Positions 16,281 to 40,909 of a stretch of DNA of 64,000 nucleotides are shown one piece after another. Below the pieces are notes generated by a model. It was not told where the DNA came from, searched no databases, and saw nothing but the letters and a program-made list of their open reading frames with translations. Position 1 is the stretch's first letter; each line of letters begins with the position of its first letter. This stretch comes from Eubacterium sp. (lineage in GTDB: Bacteria > Bacillota > Clostridia > Lachnospirales > Lachnospiraceae), in contig JAFRHL010000037.1 in assembly GCA_017433295.1 (NCBI GenBank), forward strand, positions 62,001 to 126,000, in the 5' to 3' direction. A program made the position numbers and the translations under genes.

Positions 16281-16404
16281 CGGGATGGGCATGGATATCT
16301 CCCCGGGTTCCGTTGCTCCTCGGAAACCCAGGACACATGGCGATTGTGTGTCTCTATTTCCTGCGGTGCAAAGTCACCCGGAGAGATATCCATGCCCGTT
16401 CCGG
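16281..16404 (-). repeat. Structured interspersed repeat, core copy A
   Basis: A 124-base near-perfect hairpin between the convergent lysA and HAD genes. Read on the minus strand it has conserved block 1 (GTGACTTTGCACCGCAGGAA, 16358-16377) and block 2 (16307-16326, TTTCCGAGGAGCAACGGAAC, one change from the other copies), separated by a 31-base loop whose GACACA/TGTGTC arms form a hairpin. The outer arms (GGGCATGGATATCTC / GAGATATCCATGCCC) differ from copies B and C but are fully complementary. No terminal inverted repeats flank it. On the plus strand it is followed by GTTTTTTATAT, so it may also end lysA transcription. Confidence 0.9.
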
Positions 16405-16415
16405 TGTTTTTTATA

Positions 16416-17225
16416 TTAAATCAGCCCAAAATGCTTCATCGCTATCATGATTCCCTTCCTGTTAACGGGAGTGGTGACATAAGAAACCTCTTTAAAAATC
16501 TCCCGGGACGAGTTCCCCATGGCTATACTGTTTTTCACATGCTTCAGCATGGGAAGATCGTTCGCCCCATCTCCAAACACATAACAATCATCCAGTGATT
16601 TTCCCAGATAGTTTGTCACATAATCAATCCCGCTGGCCTTGGAACACTGTCTGGGCACAATTTCCAGAAAGCGGCAGGAAAGCCCTCTTTTTTCTTCTCT
16701 TAATATCTCCAGCTCTCCGGGCAATAATTCCCTGAACAGAGAAAGGTTGCTATTTTCATCCGCAAATGCAGAGAATTTATCATAATCCAGTTTGGGGTCA
16801 TCGAAGGTACGCACAAGATCATTACTTCTTTGAAGAGAAGCGCGATAGACAGCTTCTACAGGAGGGATCATTGTTTCAGAAGTGTTGTAATAAAGATGCT
16901 TTCGCCCCTCCAGGACTCCCTGGATCCGGCACTGCCCAAGGATATCCTTTATAGAAAAGCGTGTTTCCGGTGAGAGCTGATAATGAAATATTTCCTCACC
17001 ATAAAGAACGATTTCCGTCCCGCATCCGCATATATAACCGTCAAAAGGGAAATGCATTACCTGAGCGGGCAGGTAGGACAGGGACCTTCCGGTGTTGATA
17101 AACAGAAGATGTCCGTTTTCCCGGGCTGCCAGCAGAGATTCGGCAGCGCTTTCAGGAATGGTACCATCTATCCCCCCGCTTAATAATGTGCCGTCTATAT
17201 CAAGGAATATCAGCTTATGAGTCAT
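16416..17225 (-). CDS. Cof-type HAD-superfamily sugar-phosphate/phosphoribosyl phosphatase
   Basis: A 269-residue HAD hydrolase with a C2B cap. Motif I is LDIDGTLL (residues 8-15, nucleophile Asp9), motif II NTGRS near residue 44, motif III Lys in KASGIDYVTNYLG near 201, and motif IV GDGANDLPMLK near 219. It acts on small phosphorylated metabolites in the cytosol; the Cof/YwpJ group is promiscuous, so the substrate is unknown. It converges on lysA and is transcribed divergently from the cyclophilin gene. Confidence 0.88.
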   Translation of the reverse strand: MTHKLIFLDIDGTLLSGGIDGTIPESAAESLLAARENGHLLFINTGRSLSYLPAQVMHFPFDGYICGCGTEIVLYGEEIFHYQLSPETRFSIKDILGQCRIQGVLEGRKHLYYNTSETMIPPVEAVYRASLQRSNDLVRTFDDPKLDYDKFSAFADENSNLSLFRELLPGELEILREEKRGLSCRFLEIVPRQCSKASGIDYVTNYLGKSLDDCYVFGDGANDLPMLKHVKNSIAMGNSSREIFKEVSYVTTPVNRKGIMIAMKHFGLI

Positions 17226-17477
17226 TTGTGTATCCTTTCCGCAGTGCAGGTTTCCCGGGAAGAGCCTGTTTCCCGCTTCGCTCGTGCTTGTTTTGCTTCC
17301 GATAAATCATATTATAGTAAATAATATCAAAAAAAACAATGAGAAGTTATTAAACACTGGAAAATACACACAAAGTATACTATACTCTGAAGTGGACGGC
17401 CCGCACTTTCATCGGGCGGATATACCCTTTTTTGAAACGGGGTTTCAGATCAAATAACAGAAAGGACGAATCATATT

Positions 17478-17999
17478 ATGTCACATCCAATTGTAACCTT
17501 TACCATGGACAATGGTGATATCATTAAAGCCGAATTATATCCGGAGATTGCTCCCAATACGGTAAATAACTTTATTTCTCTTGTTAAAAAAGGATTTTAT
17601 GACGGCCTGATCTTCCATCGCGTGATCAGGGGATTCATGATCCAGGGAGGATGCCCGAACGGAAACGGCATGGGCAATCCCGGCTATAGTATTAAGGGAG
17701 AGTTCACTCATAATGGTTTTCCGAACCAGTTAAAGCACGACGCAGGCGTACTTTCCATGGCCCGTTCCATGATGCCTGATTCAGCCGGCTCCCAGTTCTT
17801 TATTATGCATAAACCGGCCCCCCATCTGGATGGCGAATATGCGGCATTTGGAAAGGTGACGGAAGGCATGGAGGTGGTTGACCGCATTGCCTGCGAAAAA
17901 ACCTTTATGGACAAGCCCTATCATGACCAGATCATGAAAACCGTAACGGTCGATACTTTAGGTGTCGAGTACCCGGAACCGGAAATTATAGCCAGATAA
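17478..17999 (+). CDS. Peptidyl-prolyl cis-trans isomerase, cyclophilin type
   Basis: A 173-residue single-domain cyclophilin without signal peptide, so cytosolic. The active-site strand FHRVIRGFMIQGG near residue 46 carries the catalytic Arg, followed by the GNPGYSIKGEF insertion, SMARSMMPDSAGSQFFIMHKPAPHLDGEYAAFGKV, and the final VTVDTLG strand. AGAAAGGACG precedes the ATG by about 10 bases. It accelerates prolyl isomerisation in protein folding. It is a single gene bounded downstream by a terminator. Confidence 0.93.
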   Translation: MSHPIVTFTMDNGDIIKAELYPEIAPNTVNNFISLVKKGFYDGLIFHRVIRGFMIQGGCPNGNGMGNPGYSIKGEFTHNGFPNQLKHDAGVLSMARSMMPDSAGSQFFIMHKPAPHLDGEYAAFGKVTEGMEVVDRIACEKTFMDKPYHDQIMKTVTVDTLGVEYPEPEIIAR

Positions 18000-18051
18000 T
18001 TCCTAAACCAGATAATAGATATTATCAGATAAGTATCATAGCAGACGATTT

Positions 18052-18086
18052 AAAAAAGGCCATCCTGAAAAAGGACGGTCTTTTTT
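18052..18086. terminator. Bidirectional terminator between the cyclophilin and HPr-like genes
   Basis: AAAAAAGGCC-A-TCCT pairs with AGGA-C-GGTCTTTTTT around GAAAA, leaving runs of A and T at both ends so that it can serve both converging genes. Confidence 0.88.
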
Positions 18087-18098
18087 AAATACCCTGAC

Positions 18099-18344
18099 TC
18101 ACGCCTGGTTATTGCTGACGATATAGGCGGAAATCGCTTTAAGTACATAGTCCGCGTATTCATCATTGTAAATATAAAAATCCAGGGGACGGGAAATATC
18201 AAGACTGAAAATTCCCATCATTGACCTGGCATTAACCCGGCTGCAGCCACAGCACAGGTCAAAATGGCCTGAAAACCGGTTGATAATTTTGACAAACGAC
18301 TGGAGCTTTTCCATAGAATCAATGCTGACCTTTTTAGTAACCAT
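18099..18344 (-). CDS. HPr-like protein lacking the phosphorylatable histidine
   Basis: The ATG whose complement is at 18342-18344 has AAAGGAG 9 bases upstream and gives 81 residues; a longer upstream reading to 18518 has no such support. Residues 36-50 (RVNARSMMGIFSLDI) match the regulatory Ser46 helix of HPr, with Ser41 in that place. The GLHARPA active-site loop is missing, with SMEKLQSF in its place, so phosphoenolpyruvate-dependent phosphorylation is impossible. A cluster Cys31-Cys32-Gly-Cys34 is unusual. The fold is likely HPr-like, and the role probably regulatory or unknown. A second HPr paralogue lies at 50494. Confidence 0.7.
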   Translation of the reverse strand: MVTKKVSIDSMEKLQSFVKIINRFSGHFDLCCGCSRVNARSMMGIFSLDISRPLDFYIYNDEYADYVLKAISAYIVSNNQA

Positions 18345-18562
18345 GCTGATTTTCTCCTTTGAATGTAAATACCCTCTGTTGTTATCGTCTGACAAAAAAT
18401 GATAATGTATATCTGATATCCAAAAAATATGAGCTTCAAGCCGCTGATTAAATTTTATTAGTATCTTAACATCTACGGATAAAAAATCAAGATGTAAAAT
18501 TGCTATATTTTTTTCCATTATTGCATAGACTAACAGGAAAAGGTGACGGAAATTAGCAGGTT

Positions 18563-20239
18563 ATGGTTAATCTTTTTAGACAATTTAAAGACAACACATA
18601 TAATAGCATCCAGAAATGCTATGGTCTCATGGCCACAGCAGAGCTTGAGGAGATGGGATTATTAAAACTGGTGCGATATCCTCAGCTGGCCCTGAGGGGC
18701 CGGGGGTCCCTGGTGGCAGTGATAGATACCGGCGTAAATCTAGGGAGCCCCCTTTTTTTGTATGAGAACGGAACCAGTAAGGTGGCGGCATTGTGGGACC
18801 AGAATGATTCCGGGGGGCCAGCTCCGGAAGGTTTCTCCTACGGGCGTGAATGGACCAGGGAGGAGATCAGCCGGGCACTGAGCATGTCGGAGGAGGCCGG
18901 AATATCAGAGACAGCAGGGATACCGGAACCAGCAGAAATCCCGGAAGGAGTTGGAATCCCGGAGGGAGCTGGAATCCCGGAGACAGCAGAAATCCCGGAA
19001 GGAGCGGCTCCGATGGGGAGGCGGTCTGTGCTTCCAACTGACGAGGAGGGGCACGGCAGTTTTCTGGCTGCGATAGCAGCCGGAAGGGAGGATGCTGCCT
19101 CCGGGTTCATGGGAGCTGCCCCTGACAGCGACCTGCTGATAGTAAAGCTGCGCCAGGCGGATCCCTATTTTAGAGATTATTACTCTATTCCGGAAAATGT
19201 CTGGGCCTGCCAGGAGGAGGACGTGATCCACGGGATACAGTATGTGCTGGAAGCTGGCAGGAAAATGAATCGTCCCGTGTCGATCTGTTTGGGTATCGGA
19301 ACCAATATGGGCGGACATGACGGTACCGCCGCTCTGGACCGGTTTATTTCGGAAACCTCATTGATGACGGGGATTTCTGTCCATGTTCCGGCTGGAAATG
19401 AGGAGATCTCCGCCCACCATTTTCACGGCATAATTGAAGAGGGAAAGCCCTACACTTCTGTCAATTTCAATGTGGCGGATAAAGAGAACGGCTTTGTTAT
19501 GGAACTGTGGGGGAGACCGCCTTTTATATATACAGTTTCCTTCACCTCTCCGGGAGGAGAGAATGTGGACCGGCTCCAACTCAAACAGGGCGAGCTTCGC
19601 AGGGTAGAATTTTTTCCGGAGGAAACAATACTGGAGATCCAATCCTTTCTGGGCGAGAGCATCAGCGGCGATCAGGTGATAAGGATGCGTTTTATAAATC
19701 CGGCTCCGGGAGCCTGGCAGCTTCGGGTCCACCCGGACCCGGCGGGAGGCAGGCAGCCTTTTGACCTGTGGATGCCCATCAGCAACTTCCTGCGGGATGA
19801 AACATTTTTTCTCAATGCCAGTGCGGATGAAACCGTAACTTCTCCCGGCAATGCAGTATACAGTATTACCTATACTCCCTATGATATTAATAATAACAGC
19901 CTCTATCTCAGGGCCGGCCGGGGATTTACCAGAGACGGCAGGGTCAAACCGGACCTGGCCGCCCCCGGTGTCTCTGTCTCCGTACCATCAGACATTCCCG
20001 GCGGCCGGCCAGTCACCAGAAGCGGCAGCAGTATAGCGGCAGCCTATGGAGCAGGACTGGGAGCCCTGGTGGGAGAGTGGGCGATAGTGAAAGGAAATGA
20101 TCCTTATTATAATGGGCAGAAGCTGCGCTATTATCTGATTCAGGGGGCGGAACGCACCGGGGCCTTCCAATATCCCAACCGGGAATGGGGTTACGGGATG
20201 GTTAACATATATAATGCATTTTTGTCCCTGAGGAGATAA
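18563..20239 (+). CDS. Subtilisin-family (S8) serine peptidase with tandem GIPEGA repeats
   Basis: A 558-residue protein without a signal peptide. The catalytic triad is intact: Asp55 (AVIDTGV), His164 (EEGHGSFLAA) and Ser490 (SGSSIAAAYG). A long jelly-roll-like insert (about 280-430) separates His and Ser, as in clostridial Csp-type S8 peptidases that process germination or spore proteins. Between Asp and His, residues 111-150 are six-residue repeats of GIPEGA type (18-bp units, 18893-19012), predicted to be a flexible surface loop. The start codon is ATG with only a weak ribosome site. The stop codon coincides with the left end of a MITE-like element. The substrate is unknown. Confidence 0.85.
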   Translation: MVNLFRQFKDNTYNSIQKCYGLMATAELEEMGLLKLVRYPQLALRGRGSLVAVIDTGVNLGSPLFLYENGTSKVAALWDQNDSGGPAPEGFSYGREWTREEISRALSMSEEAGISETAGIPEPAEIPEGVGIPEGAGIPETAEIPEGAAPMGRRSVLPTDEEGHGSFLAAIAAGREDAASGFMGAAPDSDLLIVKLRQADPYFRDYYSIPENVWACQEEDVIHGIQYVLEAGRKMNRPVSICLGIGTNMGGHDGTAALDRFISETSLMTGISVHVPAGNEEISAHHFHGIIEEGKPYTSVNFNVADKENGFVMELWGRPPFIYTVSFTSPGGENVDRLQLKQGELRRVEFFPEETILEIQSFLGESISGDQVIRMRFINPAPGAWQLRVHPDPAGGRQPFDLWMPISNFLRDETFFLNASADETVTSPGNAVYSITYTPYDINNNSLYLRAGRGFTRDGRVKPDLAAPGVSVSVPSDIPGGRPVTRSGSSIAAAYGAGLGALVGEWAIVKGNDPYYNGQKLRYYLIQGAERTGAFQYPNREWGYGMVNIYNAFLSLRR

Positions 20240-20529
20240 AATGCTAAGTTGTGGGGTCGGGTTTTCCTTCTATAGCCAGCATACAGCCGGGAGGGAGCAT
20301 ACTTCTTTCATTGGTAAAGAGCAGTGGAGGAAGGGGGATATCTCTGCAAGTGACTTTGCACCGCAGGAAATCAGAAAACAGCAATCGCCACATAGCTTCT
20401 TTTTCCGAGGAGGAACGGAACTTGCAGAGATATCCCCCTCACCCCACTGCGTCAAACCTGTGGAGATCGATATGTCCCTTCCGGCGTCTCCCTGGCCATA
20501 CAAAAACCTGCCCCCACAAATCACCATTT
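20239..20529. mobile_element. MITE-like element B carrying the structured core (20321-20450)
   Basis: The ends are 18-bp imperfect inverted repeats: AAATGCTAAGTTGTGGGG at 20239-20256 and CCCCACAAATCACCATTT at 20512-20529. The same termini occur on element C at 40423. Inside is core copy B with block 1 at 20350-20369 and block 2 at 20402-20421, a 32-base loop, and a 19-bp perfect arm, GGGGGATATCTCTGCAAGT against its complement, extended by GCAGTGG/CCACTGC. There is no ORF of substance and no obvious target duplication. It fills most of the gap between the peptidase stop and the glcD-like promoter. Confidence 0.75.
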
Positions 20530-20590
20530 GTGAAAAAACACCAAAAATTACGAATCAATTTATGAAAATTTACGAAAATAAATAAAATAC

Positions 20591-20618
20591 TTGTATTTTT
20601 CAGATAATGGGGTAAAAT
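20591..20618 (+). promoter_or_regulatory. Promoter of the glcD-like gene
   Basis: TTGTAT (20591-20596) and TAAAAT (20613-20618) are 16 bases apart, with a GntR-type operator immediately downstream. Confidence 0.55.
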
Positions 20619-20630
20619 AAAGGCATAAGA

Positions 20631-20647
20631 AATTGGTTCACCCAATT
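20631..20647. promoter_or_regulatory. GntR/FCD-type operator upstream of the glcD-like gene
   Basis: AATTGGTTCACCCAATT fits the PdhR/LldR-type consensus AATTGGTnnnACCAATT with one change. It lies 13 bases after the -10 box, where binding would block transcription. An FCD-domain GntR regulator is encoded immediately after the target gene, so local control is likely. Confidence 0.7.
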
Positions 20648-20696
20648 TAGCGATAATGAACGTAAATATGTGATTTAAGAAAACGGAGGGCGAAAG

Positions 20697-22109
20697 ATGT
20701 ACAATCAGCTGACACCGGATATCATTGACCAGATTAAAGCAGTTTCTGATCATGTTTCACTGGGCGATGATATCAACAGGGATTATGAGAAGGATGAGAT
20801 GCCGATATACGGGACTCATATGCCGGATCTGGCAGTTCAGCCCCGGTCTACACAGGAAGTTGCGGATGTAGTAAAGATTTGTTACGATAATAACATTCCT
20901 GTTACTCCCCGTGGTGCAGGCACCGGACTGGCAGGAGGCTGTGTTCCGCTGTATGGAGGAGTTCTTATTGACCTTTCCCGTATGAACAGGATTCTCTCCT
21001 ATGATATGGAAAACTTTGTAGTTAATATTGAAGCAGGTGTCCTGCTGAACGATCTTGCAGCGGACTGTCTGACCAGGGGCATGATGTACCCGCCGGATCC
21101 GGGTGAAAAGTTTGCCTGTGTCGGCGGCAATGTGGCTACCAATGCCGGTGGTATGAGAGCAGTTAAGTATGGCGCTACCCGCGAGTACGTAAGAGCTATG
21201 ACAGTAGTTCTGCCGACCGGTGAGATCACACACCTTGGCGCCACCGTAACCAAGACTTCCTCGGGATATTCCCTGCTGAACCTCATGGTTGGTTCCGAAG
21301 GTACCCTGGGCATCATCACAGAGCTTACCCTGAAGATCATTCCGGCTCCCGGATTTGCGGCATCCCTGATCATTCCCTTCGAAGATCTTAAGACTGCCCT
21401 GTCCACAGTGCCGAAGTTTAAGATGGCCCATATGGATCCCCAGGCGATTGAGTTCATGGAGAGGGAGATCGTTCTTGTATCAGAGCGTTATGTAGGCAAG
21501 TCCGTATTCCCGCAGGAGCTGGAGGGACAGCAGATTGGCGCTTATCTTCTGGTTACTCTTGATGGTAAGGATGAGGATGAGGTTTATGGCCTGATCGAGC
21601 AGGCTGCCGAGCTGGTGCTTGAAGCAGGCGCCATGGATGTACTGGTGGCAGATACCCCCGATAAGATGAAGGATGCATGGGCTGCCCGGTCCTCTTTCCT
21701 GGAAGCTATCATGGAAGAGACAAAGCTCCTCGATGAGTGTGATGTGGTTGTGCCTGTCAACAAGATCGCGGACTACCTGGAATTTGTGAATAAAGTCGGA
21801 AAAGAATGCGAACTGGAGATCAAGTCCTTCGGTCATGCCGGAGATGGCAACCTGCACATTTACCAGTGCTCCAATACCCTTTCAGAAGATGTATTCAAAG
21901 AGCGCGTAGATAAGTTCTTTGACATTATTTATAAAGAAGCAACTGATATAGGCGGACTTGTGTCCGGTGAACACGGAATCGGTTCCGGCAAGATCAAATA
22001 TCTGGTAGATTCCGTAGGCGAAACCAATATGGCAATTATGGAAGGTATCAAACGAGTATTTGACCCGAAGATGATCCTTAATCCGGGAAAGGTTTGCTAC
22101 CGTCTGTAA
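20697..22109 (+). CDS. FAD-binding oxidoreductase, GlcD/D-lactate dehydrogenase type
   Basis: A 470-residue flavoprotein. The N-terminal PCMH-type FAD domain has PRGAGTGLAGGCVP near residue 72, PPDPGEKFACVGGNVATNAGG near 128 and GSEGTLGIITELTL near 205. The C-terminal GlcD/LDH cap has SFGHAGDGNLH near 375, VSGEHGIGSGK near 420 and a final FDPKMILNPGKV. It oxidises a 2-hydroxy acid such as D-lactate or glycolate to the keto acid. In anaerobes this family often works with electron-transfer flavoproteins (electron-confurcating lactate dehydrogenase), but no etfAB genes adjoin it here. GGAGGG precedes the ATG. It is probably controlled by the next gene. Confidence 0.88.
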   Translation: MYNQLTPDIIDQIKAVSDHVSLGDDINRDYEKDEMPIYGTHMPDLAVQPRSTQEVADVVKICYDNNIPVTPRGAGTGLAGGCVPLYGGVLIDLSRMNRILSYDMENFVVNIEAGVLLNDLAADCLTRGMMYPPDPGEKFACVGGNVATNAGGMRAVKYGATREYVRAMTVVLPTGEITHLGATVTKTSSGYSLLNLMVGSEGTLGIITELTLKIIPAPGFAASLIIPFEDLKTALSTVPKFKMAHMDPQAIEFMEREIVLVSERYVGKSVFPQELEGQQIGAYLLVTLDGKDEDEVYGLIEQAAELVLEAGAMDVLVADTPDKMKDAWAARSSFLEAIMEETKLLDECDVVVPVNKIADYLEFVNKVGKECELEIKSFGHAGDGNLHIYQCSNTLSEDVFKERVDKFFDIIYKEATDIGGLVSGEHGIGSGKIKYLVDSVGETNMAIMEGIKRVFDPKMILNPGKVCYRL

Positions 22110-22138
22110 TGCTTTAGAAGAACAGAGGACCAGGACAG

Positions 22139-22870
22139 GTGACAGCCTGTTGGAATGATATTATGGAAAATGTTTCAGCAGACCACAAAAAAACCTATGA
22201 ATATGTATTTGAGTATTTTTCCGATATGATATTGTCGGGGGAACTCAAGCTAAATGATAAAATTCCCCCGGAACGCGATATTGCGGCCCGTCTTGGTGTC
22301 AGCCGTAATTCCGTCCGGGAGGTCATCCACATACTGGAGATCAGCGGGCTGGTCGAAAGTGTTCAGGGCAGCGGCAATTATATACGCTGCAGGCCCCAGG
22401 ACTATATGGTGAAATCAATAAATATGTTCATGGCTTTACAGCAGATCGGGTACCGGGAGATATTTGATCTGCGCTGCGCCTATGAATATACAGCTTTAAG
22501 ACTGGCTATGGATAACATTACTTCGGAGGAGCTTGACGAGATGAGGGCAATTCTCGTCAAAATGGATGAGACAGAGCAGGCAAAGGACAGCGCAGTCCTG
22601 GATGTCCAGTTTCACCAGAAGATATTATATGCTTCCCGAAACCGTCTGCTGCTTATGTATACGCAGATGATCGGCAGTCTGTTAGACCATTTCGTTGAGG
22701 ATTTCAGGGCAAAAATCCTGATGGTTGAGGAACGGGCTGACCTGCTGAGATCCTCCCACTGGGATATTTATGAAGCTCTGGTCCGCAAAGATTTTGAGAC
22801 AGGAGTGCTTGCCATGAACCGGCATTTCAAAGTGGTGGGGGAGGAGCTGGACCGGATGGAACAGTCTTAA
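22139..22870 (+). CDS. GntR-family regulator with FCD effector domain
   Basis: A 243-residue regulator (235 if the ATG at 22163 is used; the GTG at 22139 follows a fair GAGGA site). Residues 20-85 form the GntR winged helix: LKLNDKIPPERDIAARLGVSRNSVREVIHILEISGLVE. The C-terminal FCD domain has DLRCAYEYTALRLA and metal/ligand His residues in VQFHQKILYAS and the late AMNRHFKV. This is the FadR/LldR/GlcC class that senses 2-hydroxy acids or related ligands. It lies 29 bases after the glcD-like gene and should bind the AATTGGT-type operator in front of it. Confidence 0.87.
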   Translation: MTACWNDIMENVSADHKKTYEYVFEYFSDMILSGELKLNDKIPPERDIAARLGVSRNSVREVIHILEISGLVESVQGSGNYIRCRPQDYMVKSINMFMALQQIGYREIFDLRCAYEYTALRLAMDNITSEELDEMRAILVKMDETEQAKDSAVLDVQFHQKILYASRNRLLLMYTQMIGSLLDHFVEDFRAKILMVEERADLLRSSHWDIYEALVRKDFETGVLAMNRHFKVVGEELDRMEQS

Positions 22871-22942
22871 AGAGTAGTTGTTCGGAAGTATGAATGGATG
22901 GACAGCTGTATAGTAACTAATTTAACAGGGGATTAAAAACAG

Positions 22943-23001
22943 CAGGCTGCCTTCGGACCATGGTTACTTCATTTAGTGAAGACCGGTGGGGAGGCAGCCT
23001 G
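22943..23001. terminator. Large Y-shaped hairpin between convergent GntR and DeoR genes
   Basis: CAGGCTGCCT (22943-22952) pairs with AGGCAGCCTG (22992-23001). Inside, CTTCA/TGAAG and flanking CGG/CCG segments form a second stem. No long T-run follows on either side, so it may be a transcript-end structure more than a classical terminator. Confidence 0.6.
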
Positions 23002-23005
23002 TCTG

Positions 23006-23764
23006 TTATTCTGCGATCTCAACTTTGATATTGTTTTTCTTTAATATGTTCAGCGCTTCCTCGGATATACCCGGGTCGGTACACACAGTATCGATCTCAT
23101 CGAAGGTGGACTGGATAACAACGCCCTTTTGTTCAAACTTGCTGGAATCTGCCAGAATGATCATCCGGTTGGCTGAATCCGCCATGTATTTCATGGTCTC
23201 CACTCTCATCAGATCGTCACAGGTAAAGCCGGCGTTGGGAATAAAGCCGTCGGTTCCCACAAAAAACTTATCCACATAGAATTCCCTGGCGCACTTGCGG
23301 ATGAGAGGGCCCACCATCCCCTGGTATTCCTTCTGATAATCACCTCCCAGAAGGATAACCTTCCTTAAGGGAAGATCCCTTACCCGTATGGCGATATAAG
23401 CAGAGTTGGTGATGATGGTGACGTCTTTTTTGATCTTGGCAAGTTCTTCCGCCATAAGGGCACATGTGGAACCGGATTCCAGCATAACGGTCTCTCCGTT
23501 ATTTACCATCTCGGCAGCTTTAATGGCTATCTTCAGTTTGGTCTCATAGTTTATGGTCAGGCGGGTATTGATATCATTGGCGTTTTTAATCAGGGCATAG
23601 CCGTGTTCTCTTGAGAGCAGTCCTTCGGATTCCAGAAAATCCAGATCCTTACGGATGGTAACCTGGGAAACATTCAGGATCTCTGCCAGACGACTAACCT
23701 CGATTTTCTGATACTGGTTTACTAATTTTATGATTCTGGATTGTCGTTCTGTCATTTGAAACAC
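23006..23764 (-). CDS. DeoR-family transcriptional repressor
   Basis: A 252-residue protein. The N-terminal DeoR helix-turn-helix (residues 5-57) reads RQSRIIKLVNQYQKIEVSRLAEILNVSQVTIRKDLDFLE. The C-terminal DeoRC sugar-phosphate sensor has MLESGSTC near residue 95, ITNS near 115, LLGGDYQKEYQGMVGP near 138 and FVGTDGF near 169. Such repressors are usually relieved by a phosphorylated sugar. No sugar operon adjoins it; the nearest PTS operon (fructose) is 28 kb away, so its target is unknown. The start has AGGAAGAGGTG upstream. Confidence 0.88.
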   Translation of the reverse strand: MFQMTERQSRIIKLVNQYQKIEVSRLAEILNVSQVTIRKDLDFLESEGLLSREHGYALIKNANDINTRLTINYETKLKIAIKAAEMVNNGETVMLESGSTCALMAEELAKIKKDVTIITNSAYIAIRVRDLPLRKVILLGGDYQKEYQGMVGPLIRKCAREFYVDKFFVGTDGFIPNAGFTCDDLMRVETMKYMADSANRMIILADSSKFEQKGVVIQSTFDEIDTVCTDPGISEEALNILKKNNIKVEIAE

Positions 23765-23830
23765 CTCTTCCTTTCTAACAGAAGTATATCACAAATCAAA
23801 AAAGAAAAGAAGGAAAAAAATCAGTTTTCA

Positions 23831-28944: not shown

Positions 28945-28997
28945 AATAAACAGAAGCCGGGAGGTGGTACTTTATCACCTCCCGGCTTCTGTTTATT
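28945..28997. terminator. 22-bp perfect stem terminator shared by pfkA and the XRE gene
   Basis: 28945-28966 pairs without mismatch with 28976-28997 around a 9-base loop (GTACTTTAT). The core is CAGAAGCCGGGAGGTG / CACCTCCCGGCTTCTG with AATAAA/TTTATT outside. The stop codon of the minus-strand XRE gene (28993-28995) lies within the stem, so both convergent genes use it. Confidence 0.9.
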
Positions 28998-30802: not shown

Positions 30803-30808
30803 ATAGAT

Positions 30809-33092: not shown

Positions 33093-36000
33093 ATGCACAG
33101 ATATTACAAAGTGGTAATTACGGCGCTTCTTTCTTTAATCATGCTGTTCGGATATGCTTCCTTTCCTTCAGAAGGGGGAGAAGTATATGCGGCAGCAAAG
33201 AAAGTGATGGCGGATAAAGTTACTTTGAATCACGCAAATTACACACTGAAAAAGGGTAAGGTTATCCAGTTGAAGGCGAAAGTCTTCCCTGTAAAAGCAG
33301 CTAAGAACGCCAAGCTGGTATGGAAGTCTGGTAACAAGAAGGTTGCCTTAGTATCGGCAAAGGGGAAGGTCAAAGCTCTGAAAAATGGTAAGACCAAGAT
33401 TACCGTTTCAGTAAAAGGAACAAAGAAAAAAGCTTCCTGCATGATTTATGTGGGTACTCCGCTTAAGCAAGTGAAGCTGAATAAAACATCTCTAACGCTT
33501 GAAGTGGGCGAGAGTTTCACACTGAAGCCTGCCTACACTCCAAAGAAATCGACGCTGAAAGGTGTCAAATATACGAGTAGCAATGAGAAAGTCGCTACAG
33601 TGACAGCAAAAGGTGTCATTAAAGCGGTTGAAGCGGGCAAGACTGTCATTACAGTCAAGCCTAAGGACGAAGCTGCAAAAGCAGTAAAATGTACCGTTAC
33701 TGTTAAGGCAAAGACAATAGAAAAGCCGGAACCTGCGAAAGAGGATGAAACTAAAAAAGTGGTTAGTACTTTGGATTGGACTGGCGACAATGCAGATCTT
33801 AAGAGTCTTCTTGACAGTGAAACGAAGAAACTTGAGATCAAAGCGGATCCTAAGGAGGCAGTAGATAAGGTTCTTTGGGAATCTTCGGACAAAGCATTGA
33901 CGGTCTCCCAGGATGGTACACTGACACCGAAATCCGGCACAAACGGAACATTTATTATCACAGTTTCTGTAACGGATAAAGCCGGCAATGTCAAAAAACT
34001 GACCAAAGAAATTAAAGTTACATGCACAGAGGCGACAGTCGGGACGGAAGAGGCTGTAAAGAAGGCTCTTCAGAACGAGAATCTTTGTAAACTCACGATC
34101 AGCACAAATGAGAATGTGAATATCAATATTCCTGAGGGAGAATATCCCGATGTCGACCTTGTCATCGATATGCCGAAAGGTCACGTTGAGAATCACGCAA
34201 ATTTTAAAAGCGTGACGGTCAAGTCGATTAGTGGATCTACGTATGTGGAATATGCTCTCGGCAATACGATCATCTTCATTGCAGACAACGGGCGCATTCA
34301 GATTGCGACCGGTGCAAATGCTGTTGTCATCATCGAGCAGGGGGCAGGCAATTTAGATCTTGTAAACGATGGTAACATTTCTGCTCTCAATATTGAGACG
34401 AAGGTTACCATCAATATCAGCGGTGAGTCGAATAATGACATTAAGACCACGGTGGATGAGGCGGCAGCTGCATCAAAGATTGTCACGTCGATCGAACTCG
34501 ATATGATTGTGAAGTCGAAGGTTGAACTGGAAGTAAGGGGCGGTGCTGAGCGTACCACTGTAGTTGCTGTGAACCCGGATACGGCTCCTGATGTTAGCGG
34601 GCTTGGAGTGGTCCGTGTCACATATTCTGACGGAACGAAAACAGAGGACTATATCGTTGCAAAGAATGATGGATCTGCTGCAGAGGATAACAGTGTAATC
34701 ATAAATGGCAAGGTGCTCGATACGAATGGTCAGCCTTTACCAGGAGTAGAGATCGCATTGATTCTTTATAATGGTGAGATGTCAGTCGCTGAGGCAGAAA
34801 ACAATGCCAATACCGATAGAAAAGTCACCTCATCAAATACAGGTGTTTATAGTATCGAAAATGTGCCAGCCGGCAACTATTATCTGCTCGCACGGTGCGT
34901 TGGATATGTCTCTTCTTTGACAAAAGTAAACATCGAGGGGAATACGTCACAGGAGCACACTGTCTCAGATATCCGGATGATTCAAAAGACCGACGAAGTA
35001 AAAACTGGAAGTCTTAGTGGAAAACTGATTGATGCTGTGTCAGGGAATCCTGCTGTATCCGAACTGACCGTTCTGATTCGCACAGGATCAAATAATGTGA
35101 CCGGCACCGCTTTCAAGGAGACAAGTACAGATAATGCAGGTAATTACACATTTGAGAAGTTGCCCTATGGTCAATACACTGTGCAGGTTCTTGACAAAAG
35201 AGGTGATGAGGAGTTGCTGTATGCCACAGCTTCATTCGGAGTCACCGTTTCACAGGAAAATGTAATAGCACCAGAAACAGGTCTTTCACCAGTTGTGAGT
35301 TCCGACCAGGTGCGATTTGTCCTGAGTTGGGGAAATGAGGCGAGCGGAGCTTCCTCAGACCTTGATTCGCATCTCGTGGGACCATCAGCCAACGGCAAAT
35401 TCAGATTCCACACATGGTATAGTGATAAGAAATATTATGAAGGAGATATCCTCCAGGCTGATCTCGACCTGGATGACACTGAATGGGAGGGACCGGAGAC
35501 AACCACTATCCGTATCAAGGCACCCGGAGTATATAGTTTTTATGTGCATGATTACACCAACCGTGGAAATAATAAGAGTACACAGATGGCGGCTTCTTCC
35601 GCAGTAGTCAATGTGTATTCAGGTACCAAGACAATTGGGACATTTACCATGCCCAATAAAGCGGGTGTACTCTGGTATGTTTGTGATTTCGATGCCAGAT
35701 CCAATAAAATCATTCCCAGGAATGAGATCAAGTTAATGAGTGGCAAAGAGGATGATATCGGACTCAGTGATGAAGATATCCTTAACCGGGCCATCACAAG
35801 GCTTGAGGACCTCGTGGAAGAGGCTGAAGGGATTTGGAATTGTCTGAGCGATGGTGCTTACAAGACGGAAGGTAAAGGCCTTATCGATACTGCGAAGGCT
35901 ACTCTGAATAATAGAGATTTGGCGACGATCACTGACTCTTATGATGCATTATCTGATTGGGTTAATAAGACCAGGAATGCATTAAGTATTGACAACGTAT

Positions 36001-37424
36001 ATACAGGCTCTGGAGAAGAAGATAATATTATCACCGACTATGACACGAATTCTGTTTGGGACGATGATGACACGAGTGTATTGTATAAGGTCCTTTACCT
36101 GAAGGGAACACAAGCACAGCTCCCGGATGATCTGCATATTGTATTTAGAAATGAAGAAGCGGAATATACGATCGACGGATCTGACCGGACGGGATTTGAT
36201 AAGATGGTCAGAGCCTCCTTTGGAGGAAAGGTGGAGACATATTACATCAGCTATGGAGTTGATGAGGAATACCTGCTTGGAATAGGAGAAGTCAGAGCCA
36301 CCGTTGCAGCCCAGTCAGAAGATGAAGGAGACATCAACCAGGTTACCAGCTGGTGGACCAGCAGTAAATGGATCGGAGAAGGGGAAGACGAAACCCAGAT
36401 CCACACGCTCGAAGTCGAGGGAATGACAGCAGACATTCCGGAGCAGTTAGAGGTGACCGCCGCAAGAGAAGGAGCGACAGCAGAACTGAAAGCGTCAGAC
36501 CGGGATGGATATGACAAGATGGCAGTTGTGACAAACGGCAATCTAAGCAGGAACTACTATGTCAACTATAGGGCTGATGAGGGATACCTGCTTGGAATAG
36601 GAGAAGTCAGAGCCACCGTTGCAGCCCAGTCAGAAGATGAAGGAGACATCAACCAGGTTACCAGCTGGTGGACTAACAGTGAATGGATAGGAGAAGGGGA
36701 AGACGAAACCCAGATCCACACGCTCGAAGTCGAGGGAATGACGGCAGACATTCCTGAGCAGTTAGAGGTGACCGCCGCAAGAGAAGGAGCGACAGCGGAA
36801 CTGAAAGCGTCAGACCGGGATGGATATGACAAGATGGCAGTTGTGACAAACGGCAATCTAAGCAGGAACTACTATGTTAAGTATTGCGCCGATCCTAACT
36901 ATATGGCTGATTACGAAGATCAGGATAATTCGCCAGAAGACCTGGCCAATCCGTCAGAAGATCCAGAAGACCTGGCCAATCCGTCAGAAGATCCAGAAGA
37001 CCCGGCTAATCCGTCAGAAGATCCAGAAGATCAAAGGGATCTTTTAGAAGAGGCTGAAGATCTGGGAACGATAGAGTCAATCGATTGTGAGGGTATCGAG
37101 GTTCCTTCAGGAGGTATTGCATTTAAGTTCTATCCCAAGACGACTGCAACTTATCGACTCTCTAGTAGCGGAGTTGAAGATTGTGTTGGTGAATTATATG
37201 ATAGCAACAGAAACTTGATTAATCAAAATAATGGGGAGAATTTTGAAATCATTCAAGAATTGAACATCAATGAAGAATACTTCATTTTGATGCGAGCTTC
37301 TGATAGCGAGGCACCTTTAACAGCTGATCTCCATATCGCTTTATATGAGACTCCTGATGATTCCCTAGAAGATCCTGCGGAAGTTCTCTCAGAAGATCCG
37401 AAAGAACCAGCAGATGAGGGTTAA
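33093..37424 (+). CDS. Large secreted multi-domain Ig-like surface protein
   Basis: The ATG at 33093 follows AAGGAGG by 7 bases and opens a signal peptide (YYKVVITALLSLIMLFGYA, cleavage after VYAAA); the TTG reading from 32988 is not credible. 1443 residues. Domain order: BIG2 Ig-like domains (about 40-115, 120-200, 225-310), a beta-rich part, two carboxypeptidase-regulatory/Cna-B-like domains (about 530-690), a DLDSHLVGP domain (about 745-870), a helical segment, one diverged and two near-identical 105-residue repeats, acidic PEDLANPSED repeats, and a PPC-like end domain. No LPXTG, membrane anchor or SLH is present. Past the stop the same frame encodes a CAP domain remnant, so this C-terminus is probably truncated. 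Likely cell-envelope or adhesion role. Confidence 0.8.
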   Translation: MHRYYKVVITALLSLIMLFGYASFPSEGGEVYAAAKKVMADKVTLNHANYTLKKGKVIQLKAKVFPVKAAKNAKLVWKSGNKKVALVSAKGKVKALKNGKTKITVSVKGTKKKASCMIYVGTPLKQVKLNKTSLTLEVGESFTLKPAYTPKKSTLKGVKYTSSNEKVATVTAKGVIKAVEAGKTVITVKPKDEAAKAVKCTVTVKAKTIEKPEPAKEDETKKVVSTLDWTGDNADLKSLLDSETKKLEIKADPKEAVDKVLWESSDKALTVSQDGTLTPKSGTNGTFIITVSVTDKAGNVKKLTKEIKVTCTEATVGTEEAVKKALQNENLCKLTISTNENVNINIPEGEYPDVDLVIDMPKGHVENHANFKSVTVKSISGSTYVEYALGNTIIFIADNGRIQIATGANAVVIIEQGAGNLDLVNDGNISALNIETKVTINISGESNNDIKTTVDEAAAASKIVTSIELDMIVKSKVELEVRGGAERTTVVAVNPDTAPDVSGLGVVRVTYSDGTKTEDYIVAKNDGSAAEDNSVIINGKVLDTNGQPLPGVEIALILYNGEMSVAEAENNANTDRKVTSSNTGVYSIENVPAGNYYLLARCVGYVSSLTKVNIEGNTSQEHTVSDIRMIQKTDEVKTGSLSGKLIDAVSGNPAVSELTVLIRTGSNNVTGTAFKETSTDNAGNYTFEKLPYGQYTVQVLDKRGDEELLYATASFGVTVSQENVIAPETGLSPVVSSDQVRFVLSWGNEASGASSDLDSHLVGPSANGKFRFHTWYSDKKYYEGDILQADLDLDDTEWEGPETTTIRIKAPGVYSFYVHDYTNRGNNKSTQMAASSAVVNVYSGTKTIGTFTMPNKAGVLWYVCDFDARSNKIIPRNEIKLMSGKEDDIGLSDEDILNRAITRLEDLVEEAEGIWNCLSDGAYKTEGKGLIDTAKATLNNRDLATITDSYDALSDWVNKTRNALSIDNVYTGSGEEDNIITDYDTNSVWDDDDTSVLYKVLYLKGTQAQLPDDLHIVFRNEEAEYTIDGSDRTGFDKMVRASFGGKVETYYISYGVDEEYLLGIGEVRATVAAQSEDEGDINQVTSWWTSSKWIGEGEDETQIHTLEVEGMTADIPEQLEVTAAREGATAELKASDRDGYDKMAVVTNGNLSRNYYVNYRADEGYLLGIGEVRATVAAQSEDEGDINQVTSWWTNSEWIGEGEDETQIHTLEVEGMTADIPEQLEVTAAREGATAELKASDRDGYDKMAVVTNGNLSRNYYVKYCADPNYMADYEDQDNSPEDLANPSEDPEDLANPSEDPEDPANPSEDPEDQRDLLEEAEDLGTIESIDCEGIEVPSGGIAFKFYPKTTATYRLSSSGVEDCVGELYDSNRNLINQNNGENFEIIQELNINEEYFILMRASDSEAPLTADLHIALYETPDDSLEDPAEVLSEDPKEPADEG
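36261..36890 (+). repeat. Two near-identical tandem 315-bp repeats inside the surface-protein gene
   Basis: Unit 1 is 36261-36575 and unit 2 is 36576-36890; each encodes 105 residues beginning EYLLGIGEVRATV or GYLLGIGEVRATV. They differ at only about a dozen bases, including silent ones. A strongly diverged third unit precedes them (about 36000-36260). Such long identical repeats allow copy-number change by recombination and are prone to assembly error. Confidence 0.92.
36938..37030 (+). repeat. 30-bp tandem repeats encoding PEDLANPSED
   Basis: Three copies of a 30-bp unit (CCAGAAGACCTGGCCAATCC and onward) encode acidic, proline-containing decapeptides. The repeat links the 105-residue repeats to the last domain and is likely an extended wall-spanning or spacer segment. 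Confidence 0.9.
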
Positions 37425-37656
37425 CAGCTTGAGGTTTTAGAAGTATACGCTCTTCTAAACTATTTCCGTGCTGACGTGAATGAATGCTGGTACTGGTATG
37501 AAGACAACGAGACGAAAACAGAAGTCAGAAATCTTGAGGCTCTCGCATATGATGCGTATTTTTAAGAAACTGCGAAGCTTCGAGCTCAGGAAGCTAAATT
37601 CAGTATCGATTTGCGACAACACATAATGGAATACTCAGCATTCGGTCATCGCATCG
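37425..37656 (+). pseudogene. Decayed CAP/SCP domain in frame with the surface-protein gene
   Basis: Directly after the TAA at 37422-37424 the same frame reads QLEVLEVYALLNYFRADVNE, then CWYWYEDNETKTEVRNLEAL and AYDAYF, a second TAA at 37563-37565, then ETAKLRAQEAKFSIDLRQHI and a TGA near 37653. ALLNxFR, L.YD..L.ETAKLRAQE and a following His are the opening of a CAP (SCP/PR-1) domain as found at the C-terminus of clostridial surface proteins. The remaining half of the domain is not recognisable downstream. Two nonsense codons (each one change from CAA or GAA) plus loss of the end indicate decay. Confidence 0.65.
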
Positions 37657-37891
37657 GATGCTGAGTATGGGTATCATTCAATCTCAGACGCAGGAATCTC
37701 GTGATCTTCAGTCATGAGAGGAATACGCAAAGTTCGCTTCTCTCTGATGTGGGACACAAACCCGCGTCTGAGCCCCCGCCTCGCGCGAAATCGTCGAGGC
37801 AATTTCGATTGATAAATGAGGCATAGTCATAAATGGATAAGTTTTATGCTGATATTCTGATGCATGGTAACTATTATGACCCGCACATTGT

Positions 37892-37927
37892 CCCATGGAG
37901 AGATTTCCTTCTCTCCATGGGATTATT
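37892..37927 (+). terminator. Terminator after the surface-protein region
   Basis: CCCATGGAGAGA (37892-37903) pairs perfectly with TCTCTCCATGGG (37910-37921), followed by ATTATTTTT. The 37657-37891 stretch holds no supportable gene. Confidence 0.85.
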
Positions 37928-37962
37928 TTTCCCTCCAGCCTGACCCTGACAGGGATTCCACC

Positions 37963-37991
37963 TTGATTCCAAATCAGCCAGGCTGTATAAT
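37963..37991 (+). promoter_or_regulatory. Promoter of the MmcQ-alkyltransferase gene
   Basis: TTGATT (37963-37968), a 17-base spacer and exact TATAAT (37986-37991). Confidence 0.75.
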
Positions 37992-38040
37992 TCAGGTAAG
38001 TAGGAAGGAATCCTATAAATGAAGAGAACAGGACAAAAGA

Positions 38041-38670
38041 ATGATGAAAACCAGACAGGAAGCATTAGCATACGGACTTTCCTTTCCGGATACCCGGCAG
38101 GATGCCCCATTTCATGATGAAAACTGGCAGCTTGTCCGATATAACGGGAATAATAAGGCTTTTCTCTGGACCTATGAGAAGGACGGCTTTATCAATCTGA
38201 ATGTCAAGACGGACCCGGATAAGGCATGGTTCTGGAGAGACATCTACAAGTCAGTTATACCGGGGTATCACCAGAATAAGAGACACTGGAACACCATTAT
38301 CCTTGACGGGACTGTGCCCGATAAAGACGTGAAAATGATGATTGCCGAGAGTTATGACCTGATCAGCGACAGTCCTTCAAAACGAATCTATGAAGCAGTA
38401 AAAAAGATACCATATGGTCACGTCGCCACCTACGGACAGGTGGCAGCCCTGGCCGGTGACAGGAAAATGGCCCGGGCAGTGGGAAACGCCCTGCATAAAA
38501 ATCCAGATCCCGAGCATATCCCCTGTTATCGGGTGGTGAATGCAAAGGGAGAGCTTGCCGGAGCATTTGCTTTTGGAGGCGCAGGCGTCCAGGCCGGATT
38601 ACTGGAGGCCGAGGGAATTGAAGTAAAAAACGGAAAGGTGGATCTGGACAGGTACCAGTGGAAGGAATGA
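38041..38670 (+). CDS. Fusion of an MmcQ/YjbR domain with a DNA alkyltransferase-like domain
   Basis: A 209-residue two-domain protein. Residues 1-112 are MmcQ/YjbR-like (RQEALAYGLSFPDTRQDAPFHDENWQLVRY, WTYEKDGFINLNVKTDPDKAWFWRD). Residues 118-205 are the MGMT/ATL DNA-binding domain with PYGHVATYGQVAALAG and the acceptor motif IPCYRVV, where Cys is kept but the usual PCHRV His is Tyr. It therefore may repair O6-alkylguanine or act as a damage sensor; the His-to-Tyr change could weaken Cys activation. The MmcQ half is a wHTH-like fold of unclear role. It ends 18 bases before the GNAT gene, in one operon. Confidence 0.85.
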   Translation: MMKTRQEALAYGLSFPDTRQDAPFHDENWQLVRYNGNNKAFLWTYEKDGFINLNVKTDPDKAWFWRDIYKSVIPGYHQNKRHWNTIILDGTVPDKDVKMMIAESYDLISDSPSKRIYEAVKKIPYGHVATYGQVAALAGDRKMARAVGNALHKNPDPEHIPCYRVVNAKGELAGAFAFGGAGVQAGLLEAEGIEVKNGKVDLDRYQWKE

Positions 38671-38687
38671 TACCAGTGGAAGGAATT

Positions 38688-39212
38688 ATGAATATCAGAA
38701 AAGCAGATAAAGATGATCTGGACCAGATCATCAGAATATATGAGCACATCCATGATGAGGAGGAGTCGGGAAATGTATCCATCGGATGGATCAGGGATGT
38801 TTATCCGACAAAAGGAACAGCTGAAGAATCCCTGAAAAGGGGAGACCTTTTTGTGTTGGAGGAGAACGGCCGCATCCTCGCCGCCGCAATCATTAACCGG
38901 ATACAGGTTCCCGAATACCGGTATGCCGGCTGGAAACACGAGGCAGGGGAAGACGAGGCCATGATACTTCATACCCTGGTTGTGGATCCCCGGCAGAGCG
39001 CAAGGGGATATGGGAAGGCATTTGTTTTCTTTTATGAAGACTATGCCGGCAGGCAGGGCTGTCATGAATTGCGTATGGATACTAATGCTACTAATATAAG
39101 AGCCAGAAAGATGTATCAGAGGCTTGGCTATGAAGAAGTCGGTATTGTTCCCTGTATATTTAATGGGATTCCCGATGTAAAGCTTGTTTGTCTGGAGAAA
39201 TACCTGGGTTGA
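38688..39212 (+). CDS. GNAT-family N-acetyltransferase
   Basis: 174 residues from the ATG at 38688, preceded by GGAAGGAAT; a GTG reading from 38658 would overlap the previous gene. The GNAT core is clear: MNIRKADKDDLDQIIRIYEHIH at the start, ILHTLVVDPRQSARGYGKAFV for motif A (the Q/RxxGxG/A-like pyrophosphate loop is RQSARGYGKA), and MDTNATNIRARKMYQRLGYEEVG for motif B. The acceptor substrate is unknown. The ribosome site lies in the second of two tandem TACCAGTGGAAGGAAT copies straddling the upstream stop codon. Confidence 0.85.
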   Translation: MNIRKADKDDLDQIIRIYEHIHDEEESGNVSIGWIRDVYPTKGTAEESLKRGDLFVLEENGRILAAAIINRIQVPEYRYAGWKHEAGEDEAMILHTLVVDPRQSARGYGKAFVFFYEDYAGRQGCHELRMDTNATNIRARKMYQRLGYEEVGIVPCIFNGIPDVKLVCLEKYLG

Positions 39213-39241
39213 GTTAAATAGTAGTCGAGAAGTAGAAAAGT

Positions 39242-39273
39242 GGAGCCGTGCCAATGTGATTTGGAACGGCTCC
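39242..39273. terminator. Hairpin between convergent GNAT and alcohol dehydrogenase genes
   Basis: GGAGCCGT-CCA pairs with TGG-ACGGCTCC across a short loop. On the minus strand it is followed by ACTTTTCTACTTCT, so it can end the dehydrogenase transcript. Confidence 0.65.
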
Positions 39274-39293
39274 GCATTGCGTTGTAATATATT

Positions 39294-40397
39294 CTATTCC
39301 ACTACAAGTGATTTTGTAAGGATTCGTATTAATCCATCCCGTCCTATCTCAAAGGGATAAGTTGCGAGCTTTCCTGCATTTGCAGCCATTTTTTCAGCAA
39401 TGTCTGTAAGCTTTCCGGCTTCAATGGACTGCGGACCCAGCAGGTCTTTAAGCAGGGCACCGAATTCATCCGTTCCGGGAAGTCCAAGCAGGGAAAGGAT
39501 CCTGTTTACGTCTTCCGGTTTATTCTTTGCATATTCTTCCATATAAGCTGCCAGAGTCAGGCCGCAGGCCCGTCCATGGGGAACATCATAGGTCAGAGTG
39601 ATCGGATAGCTCAGTGCGTGTGGCAGGGAGGTTCCGGTCTGGGCGATGGCCATGCCGGCCACAGTGGATGTCAGCATGAGATGTTCATATGCTATCTCGT
39701 CCGCTTCTTTCTCCCCCCGCAGGTAAGGAATTACACCTGCCCAGAGCTTGATGCCATATTCCGAAAACATCTGATTATAAATATTTGATTTGCGGTGCAG
39801 GCGGCTTTCCACCAGGTGGGCCAGGGCATCCACAGCAGTATTGATCAGGAGCTTCCTGCTGGCGGATGCCAGATATTTGCCATCCACCAGGGCCAGTCTG
39901 GGATAGATGTTGTAGCTGATACTTCCTTTAGCTCCGATGGCATGCCTGGTAAGAACGGCATTGGGAGTAACCTCGGAACCTGTACCACAGGTGGTGGGTA
40001 CAGCCGCAAAAGGCAGTGGAGCCGCGAGATCTTTTTTCTTATAGAGACATTCTTCTGTCTCAGCGGGGTTGGCCACCAGCAAGGCGATGGCTTTGCCCGC
40101 ATCCAAAGGAGACCCGCCTCCGATTCCGATAACAAAATCAACCTGTTCATCTATTCCGGTTTTTGCCGCTCTGGCAACTGTTTCTGTGGAAGGATTCTCC
40201 TCTATTTCATTGAATATTACATAGGGTACGGACGCTTCAGCAAGAACTGCAGTGACATCATCCAGAGAACCGTTGGCAGCCGCCGAATGTCTGCCGGTGA
40301 TAATGAAAGCCTTTGTTCCCAGGGAAGTCAGTTCCTGTTTGTGTGATTTGACACAATCCTTTTCTATATATACGTTTGTAGGGGCGAAAAATCGCAT
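39294..40397 (-). CDS. Iron-containing (group III) alcohol dehydrogenase
   Basis: A 367-residue metal alcohol dehydrogenase, distinct from the FucO at 12800. The NAD(P) motif is GIGGGSPLDAGKAIA near residue 91. Metal ligands follow the D...H...H...H pattern: NTAVDALAHLVES near residue 186, SLPHALSYPI and YDVPHGRAC. The specificity is unknown; relatives reduce aldehydes to alcohols such as 1,3-propanediol or butanol. The start has AGAAAGGAG 10 bases upstream, and only 10 bases beyond that lies the end of MITE-like element C, so its promoter is probably inside or beyond the element. Confidence 0.88.
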   Translation of the reverse strand: MRFFAPTNVYIEKDCVKSHKQELTSLGTKAFIITGRHSAAANGSLDDVTAVLAEASVPYVIFNEIEENPSTETVARAAKTGIDEQVDFVIGIGGGSPLDAGKAIALLVANPAETEECLYKKKDLAAPLPFAAVPTTCGTGSEVTPNAVLTRHAIGAKGSISYNIYPRLALVDGKYLASASRKLLINTAVDALAHLVESRLHRKSNIYNQMFSEYGIKLWAGVIPYLRGEKEADEIAYEHLMLTSTVAGMAIAQTGTSLPHALSYPITLTYDVPHGRACGLTLAAYMEEYAKNKPEDVNRILSLLGLPGTDEFGALLKDLLGPQSIEAGKLTDIAEKMAANAGKLATYPFEIGRDGLIRILTKSLVVE

Positions 40398-40422
40398 ATT
40401 AAATACTCCTTTCTTATATTGT

Positions 40423-40909
40423 AAATGTTAGGTTGTGGGGCTGTGTTTTGTATGGTCCGTCTCTTCTGATGTTTACTGGAAGTAAAGGAAACCCATCCCG
40501 ATTTTCCCATTTTGGTAAACAGGGGTAAATATGGTTCATGTGGTTCGTAAATTCCGGATGCAGGCAGATATATTTATAAGTTTGCTGATTTTATCTGCCC
40601 AAAGCCAGAATTATGAGTAAACCTTACGGATAAAAAAGGATAATTAGTAATTATATCTGCTATGATTCATTATCTTTTTCCAGATGCTTACAAAAATGAA
40701 AAAATCGGTCTGGGTTTCCCTGTGACAGCCGATAAACAGCAGAGAACGAGGGGGACTATGTCTGAAAGTGACTTTGCACCGCAGGAAATCACGGACAAAA
40801 AATGCCAAATAACTCCAATTTCCGAGGAGGAACGGAACTTGCAGCCATAGTCCCCCTCGTTCTCTGCGTCTATCCGGTCAAACAAACACACCCCCACAAA
40901 CCAACATTT
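40423..40909. mobile_element. MITE-like element C carrying the structured core (40739-40867)
   Basis: The ends are AAATGTTAGGTTGTGGGG (40423-40440) and CCCCACAAACCAACATTT (40892-40909), inverted repeats matching those of element B at 20239. Core copy C has block 1 at 40768-40787, block 2 at 40819-40838, a 31-base loop, and a 22-bp perfect outer arm (GCAGAGAACGAGGGGGACTA plus TG) whose sequence is unlike A and B. The remaining 300 bases hold no ORF. The element occupies most of the gap between the divergent dehydrogenase and rpe genes. Confidence 0.75.

Follow-up and report, generated by a model that had tools for sequence, protein, structure and literature searches.

Three long hairpins in a Eubacterium contig

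The window analyzed here, a 64,000-nucleotide (nt) stretch of contig JAFRHL010000037.1 from the gut bacterium Eubacterium sp. (Lachnospiraceae), contains three copies of a hairpin element sharing two 20-base blocks. As a sequence-only reading of this DNA had proposed, both blocks are present at all three sites. Block 1 is exact in each copy, and block 2 is exact in copies B and C and has a single mismatch in copy A (GAGCAACG in place of GAGGAACG); chance expectations per window are 0.00 for block 1 and 0.01 for block 2. The claimed spacing of 31 to 32 bases between blocks holds (31 in A and C, 32 in B), as does the ability of GGAAA in block 1 to pair with TTTCC in block 2. All three copies were folded.

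Copy A, 16280-16404, minus strand: arms 16280-16306 and 16378-16404, block 2 at 16307-16326, block 1 at 16358-16377.
Copy B, 20321-20453, plus strand: arms about 20321-20349 and 20422-20449, block 1 at 20350-20369, block 2 at 20402-20421, 3' foot CGTC at 20450-20453.
Copy C, 40736-40870, plus strand: arms about 40739-40767 and 40839-40867, block 1 at 40768-40787, block 2 at 40819-40838, feet ACAG at 40736-40739 and CGTC at 40867-40870.

Copy A is flanked by the 3' ends of two converging open reading frames (ORFs), 14999-16252 (plus) and 16416-17225 (minus), and copy C lies between the divergent ORFs 39294-40397 (minus) and 41073-41732 (plus).

Nearly every complete copy of the element folds as a single long imperfect hairpin of about 125 nt. 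From the outside inward come an ACAG foot, able to pair with CTGT, then the arms, the core, and a variable-length apical stem; some members also have an unpaired CGT on the 3' side. The arms differ from copy to copy yet are complementary to their own partners, as the earlier reading had seen, although the 15 to 22 bp that it gave them falls short of the actual length of about 25 to 30 bp. The core, referred to below as the first core, forms a helix rather than a loop, and the irregularities of this helix are fixed: tandem G·A/A·G, U·C, A·A, G·A, and a bulged A. In the alignments, tandem 5'-GA-3'/5'-GA-3' mismatches recur on the strand on which the element is read here. A kink-turn was rejected by reasoning from the alignment, which shows no 3-nt bulge adjoining the tandem G·A.

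The distance from foot to core is mostly 24 to 31 nt, and CGTC is found 18 to 45 nt past the core in 33 of 59 copies versus 4 of 58 in the background. In the genome to which the window belongs, the spacer between the core halves measures 33, 34, 39, 40, 41, 46, or 48 nt. Because a spacer varying from 33 to 48 nt does not preserve a reading frame, a protein-coding role for DFAPQEI-type peptides, which the earlier reading had drawn from six-frame translation, finds no support.

The window holds other palindromes as well. A 25-bp core-less hairpin at 28945-28997 (AATAAACAGAAGCCGGGAGG...) has a similar foot and is possibly an ordinary terminator with element-like arms. Perfect inverted repeats of 31 bp with GGAGACAGGGGACGGTTCTCTGTCTCC, at 14861-14962 and 44500-44579, form a second palindromic repeat family of the REP type, also present at locus L037 and presumably similar to RAYT-linked REPs.

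Copy number, a second core, and dispersal

In the window's genome (G000), 2.9 Mb in 56 contigs, block 1 occurs at 38 places if up to 3 mismatches are allowed and at 31 without any. A few of the 38 are not whole elements (on contig C53, a truncated one on C19, and C43:25 at a contig edge). A search model of the element (R2) also returns 38 loci in this genome, a partly different set. The further copies that the earlier reading had called for thus exist, about 38 in this genome and more in related ones. The exact core pattern occurs in G000 alone among 24 genomes of the genus and has no match in a wider genome-contig collection, from which the window's own records may be omitted. A looser core pattern is found on 16 contigs of four metagenome-assembled genomes, apparently G401, G411, G412, and G413 of the genus, and has no match in viral contigs; copy B likewise has none among plasmids and phages.

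With R2, 9 of the 24 genus genomes are positive (E <= 0.01), including diverged members in G403, G406, and, weakly, G399 (E 0.001 and 0.003). Several of the diverged members keep the outer core half (ACUUUG / CAACGGA or near) and have a shortened inner half or, in its place, a plain stem. In G406, the short-core element at locus L204, behind thrS, is followed by another core-like stretch that lacks arms to match and resembles a neighbor copy in decay.

Outside the genus, R2 run on 39 genomes gave two weak matches, both in G007 of another genus (E 0.003 and 0.007; L147 and L149). These fold as hairpins with core-like halves, and no further copy was found in another 0.65 Mb of that 2.8-Mb genome. 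A model search of 397 genomes of the bacterial family gives weak evidence on occurrence beyond the genus, as it scored 9 candidates per genome and recovered 9 of the 38 loci of the window's genome. The element family looks lineage-restricted, with clear members in one genus and few searches beyond it. No Rfam 15 family matches the window above its gathering cut-off, in agreement with the earlier statement that no named RNA family has these blocks; with an E-value threshold, the stretch around copy B matches only the microRNA model mir-4484, at 21.2 of 90 bits. A literature search of open PubMed Central (PMC) papers found no description of the element.

Two genomes, G319 and G399, have hairpins on a similar tagged foot with a different core.

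Second-core hairpins, L228 and L230-L234 (G399) and L229 and L193 (G319): core type GTGACTTTAGTCGCGGC / TTTGCTCCGAGGCCAC with apical GTTGAATG...CATTCAA, and GTTGAATG...CATTCAAC core.

Their arms likewise vary from copy to copy and run for 32 bp free of mismatches in 5 of the 7 measured. A GACG tag precedes the core by 51 nt in 7 of 8, and in all 8 a gene end lies 17 to 36 bp from the estimated upstream edge. A hairpin with one core or the other is present in 10 of the 24 genus genomes.

The copies stand in unrelated surroundings. In four of five groups, pairwise ungapped identity between copies drops to about 0.2 to 0.35 by 50 to 60 nt outside the core. A group in the window's genome with TATGTCTG arms keeps an identity of 0.32 to 0.47 out to about 70 nt on one side or the other, which fits larger carrier repeats. 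Copies in this genome are scattered on many contigs beside varied genes, and closely similar copies occupy different loci within G411. Integron attC sites differ in this respect: we see no cassette arrays, although no integrase search was made. Insertion of the core into the loops of pre-existing long terminators is disfavored, as core-less long hairpins were few in the DNA examined for them (4 in loci of the window's genome and 12 in other loci, with loops of up to 40 nt) and the core-proximal arms are partly conserved. Also rejected was a GCAGATA...TATCTGC hairpin as a fixed upstream partner, which, among the loci listed, lies upstream of only part of the copies in the window's genome; this repeat occurs at about 40564-40660 of the window and at L003, L016, L018, and L021, the last having three near-tandem units of about 63 bp.

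Copy B looks nested inside an older copy of the element, and both are enclosed by ends resembling terminal inverted repeats (TIRs).

Remnant arms of the older element, 20284-20489, plus strand: CAGCCGGGAGGG... at about 20284-20305 and ...TCCCTTCCGGCGTCT at about 20457-20489 (direct sequence reading).
TIR-like ends around copy B, 20246-20525, strand unassigned: TTGTGGGG...GGTTTT and AAACCTGCCCCCACAA (by eye).

By eye, similar ends also surround several further copies in the window's genome. An ordinary miniature inverted-repeat transposable element (MITE), a short TIR element moved by a resident insertion sequence with the hairpin merely inside it, would explain why several copies lie in larger repeats with TTGATTTGTGGGGG-like inverted-repeat ends, and might produce the 8 pairs of copies in this genome that face apart at about 170 to 380 bp. 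Many other copies of the same genome and the other-species copies inspected lack such ends, however, and target duplications are not established. We judge this explanation very improbable.

Alternatively, the element could be a mobile single-stranded DNA hairpin of the REP/RAYT or IS200/IS605 kind, one folded strand of which is recognized by a transposase or recombinase, with any host function incidental. Such mobility would agree with the unrelated surroundings, the closely similar G411 copies at different loci, the nesting, the CGT that some members conserve at the foot, the strand specificity of the core mismatches, and the lack of a G·U preference in the arms (see below). Against it, the distribution of Y1 transposases (PF01797) among the 24 genomes does not follow that of the element: 16 have matches, several of them element-free, and the element-bearing G410, G411, and G406, which are incomplete genomes, have none. 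No contig bearing a first-core element has a Y1 match. With hairpins of both cores counted, just one hairpin-bearing contig has such a match, C33 of G399, where it lies about 14 kb from a second-core hairpin. Nor has a precise empty site or target duplication been established. On balance we consider this origin unlikely, and single-stranded DNA, which the earlier reading had offered as its other option, stays viable.

Position at the ends of genes

With gene ends taken from a simple ORF picker rather than from annotation, a converging gene ends no more than 100 bp from the 3' edge of the element in 45 of 67 cases overall. The placement is oriented: among copies in the window's genome, a converging gene end lies that close to the 3' edge in 22 of 36 and to the 5' edge in 4 of 36. 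In other species, the count is 15 of 23 copies for the 3' edge and again 15 of 23 for the 5' edge, and all 8 diverged members have a gene end at the 3' edge, 5 to 69 bp away. Compared with 24 of 131 baseline gene pairs (drawn from the window and 17 loci, with some element sites included), a convergent setting is enriched both in other species (13/17; Fisher P = 2.7e-6) and in the window's genome (12/33; P = 0.034). A T-rich tail follows the hairpin on the gene-sense strand in 17 of 33 copies versus 4 of 33 on the other strand.

A family scan covered 40 of the 45 adjoining genes. Matches (E <= 1e-15, not all above the curated cut-off) were obtained for 29, among them murC, thrS, folE, gltD, scpB, and a lysA-like gene, and 11 have none. 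Many of the matched genes are housekeeping genes, without a common pathway. Orthologous sites are occupied in more than one genome at a LiaG-like gene, folE, thrS, and murC. Behind murC (23 genomes, G411 and G413 being uninformative) and thrS (12 genomes), we find mostly ordinary or unrelated hairpins or none that is clear; the exceptions are G000, G403, and G406, which carry the element, and G319, which has the second core. At the site of copy A in the window, the relatives G401 and G404 have unrelated hairpins (by eye), and at the site of copy B the aligned flanks are separated by about 75 bp in G401 versus about 331 bp in the window. Because orthologous gene ends of relatives bear other hairpins or none that is clear, these comparisons suggest that the element stands in for a terminator.

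The T enrichment of the gene-sense tail suggests that the hairpin would form the transcript 3' end of the abutting gene, by termination or as an exonuclease barrier. Like intrinsic terminators, the element lies behind stop codons, where some other species have such hairpins; unlike them, it is far longer, has a conserved internal core, and has a weak or absent T tract in about half of the copies examined. In the available text of PMC3049150, SPRITE is a dispersed repeat of pneumococcus that resembles a Rho-independent terminator and is enriched between converging genes, and SPRITE, BOX, and RUP are predicted stem-loops found in pneumococcus and close relatives. The element is similar to SPRITE as a terminator-like dispersed hairpin between converging genes, a likeness of description. 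The terms "covariation" and "compensat" are absent from that paper as far as its available text goes.

Arm evolution and the nature of the family

Of 61 candidate copies, two were excluded because their arms were truncated or had under 12 paired cells. Across 36 copies of the window's genome, changes occur on both sides in 28 of 40 pairs, and 91.9% of cells pair. A set of 41 sequences from six genomes (18 of those 36, hand-picked for diversity, and all 23 from other species) has both-side changes in 22 of 29 pairs and 90.0% of cells paired, with no shuffled or slid control near these values. Several core pairs covary across species; that of columns 24-85 is U-A in 21 sequences and C-G in 20, without exception. 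A model search and a count of covarying pairs, in line with what the earlier reading suggested, gave relatives in the genus and strong covariation, and its description of a conserved core with compensating stems stands far above the controls.

Whether this is the hallmark of a selected RNA, as that reading had it, is another matter. The element could be a structured RNA under selection, either a regulatory element of the 3' untranslated region or an independent noncoding RNA, the core of which binds a protein or forms a tertiary motif while the arms covary to keep the fold. Very strong covariation that includes core pairs speaks for this, as do retention at several orthologous sites and the recurrence of tandem 5'-GA-3'/5'-GA-3' mismatches on the strand as read, tandem G·A mismatches being a typical RNA motif. 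RNA selection, however, predicts more G·U than A·C, and the internal arm cells have 25 G·U versus 36 A·C. In 66 terminator-like hairpins from the window and the loci retrieved, chosen without favoring G·U, the counts are 28 versus 13 (Fisher P = 0.0087 against the arms); a filter against element copies removed none of these hairpins. Many copies also lack a neighboring gene oriented to transcribe the G·A-motif strand, Rfam has no match, and clear members are confined to one genus, within limited searches beyond it. The RNA reading is partly supported, and we regard it as possible but doubtful.

Parity of G·U and A·C is predicted by template copying, and equally by selection on both strands under converging transcription. 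Among 8 pairs of close copies in the window's genome (at most 4 differing arm positions), 12 changes are Watson-Crick double changes (8 transversional), 9 are single, and 2 are of other kinds. At an orthologous site in G412 and G413, the core is identical and the inner arms differ on both sides. At the folE site, the 5' arms of G403 and G406 differ at 8 of 19 aligned positions, and a 2-bp length difference is matched in both arms; arm-to-arm copying of DNA explains this matched difference, together with the paired changes, as well or better. As the arms show no G·U excess, paired changes that are often transversional, and a matched length difference, the claim of an RNA hallmark is unsupported, and the arm pattern fits either DNA-level arm copying or both-strand selection. 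Template switching is a known route by which inverted-repeat arms become alike, according to the available texts of PMC8604942 and PMC7202029; here, unlike in those accounts, it would act repeatedly on a repeat family and spare the core mismatches.

The closest kind of known element is a dispersed palindromic or terminator-like repeat, such as REP or SPRITE. In the available text of PMC3733652, REPs with GTAG and CGTC tags are palindromes scattered behind genes, for the most part between ORFs that converge or run in one direction; they frequently come in pairs and have an unpaired tag at one end, and CGTC REPs are reported without a dedicated transposase. The element resembles them in being intergenic and behind genes (45/67), in the face-apart pairs, and in having no tracking Y1 transposase. 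It differs in size, as REPs measure 20 to 40 bp with stems of 5 to 13 bp (PMC3733652). Its CGTC, present in part of the copies, may be compared with the unpaired tag of REPs, but the polarity, at the 3' foot on the strand as read, seems opposite to that of the CGTC families as described in that text. Size, variable arms, a core shared across species, and another core on a similar tagged scaffold set the element apart within this known kind.

Our preferred reading, to which we give about even confidence, is a lineage-restricted family of dispersed, terminator-like giant hairpin repeats akin to REP and SPRITE and located mainly just behind stop codons. Several observations weigh against it. The PF01797 search yielded neither a transposase partner nor a binding protein. 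Six of the 33 copies of the window's genome with both neighbors seen, copy C included, sit between divergent genes, and 16 of 33 gene-sense tails examined are not T-rich. The G·A-motif strand is antisense to the gene abutting the 3' edge, and the CGTC foot, found in only 33 of 59 copies, is absent from most copies of G411 to G413. As to the arms, taken by themselves their G·U and A·C counts are compatible with 1:1 (P = 0.20), the control hairpins behind the 28:13 ratio are not all independent, and parity could equally reflect selection on both strands where genes converge. The 8 close pairs share copies, and their single changes (9) are nearly as common as double ones (12); the sole close pair from other species has 5 single changes and no double change, and the orthologous pair L077/L080 differs in its arms by single unpaired changes.

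If the element is such a repeat family, two steps beyond the formation of transcript ends may be proposed, both among the least certain parts of the model. Arm complementarity would be maintained mostly in the DNA itself, one arm serving as template for the other during template switching in the hairpin, together with selection for pairing. The retention of the core may be due to a trans-acting factor, possibly the enzyme responsible for spreading the element, that recognizes the folded strand displaying the tandem G·A mismatches. A bolder version, which we think decidedly unlikely, is a new class of DNA hairpin whose mismatch-coded core is fixed by a dedicated enzyme reading one folded strand, and whose arms are rebuilt as mutual copies at each processing so that their turnover is almost free; hosts would use it as a 3'-end signal for housekeeping genes, and the sister species G399 and G319 would have swapped the core on the same tagged scaffold.

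Overall, the element has the appearance of a new and rapidly evolving family of terminator-like repeats and not of a known RNA. Covariation and RNA function are often taken as one signal, and here strong covariation occurs without a G·U preference, in repeats consistent with palindrome maintenance at the level of DNA. If our reading is correct, RNA discovery in repeat families can go astray when it relies on covariation alone, and the genus would be a natural system in which terminator-like repeats replace host terminators, with cores changing from species to species.

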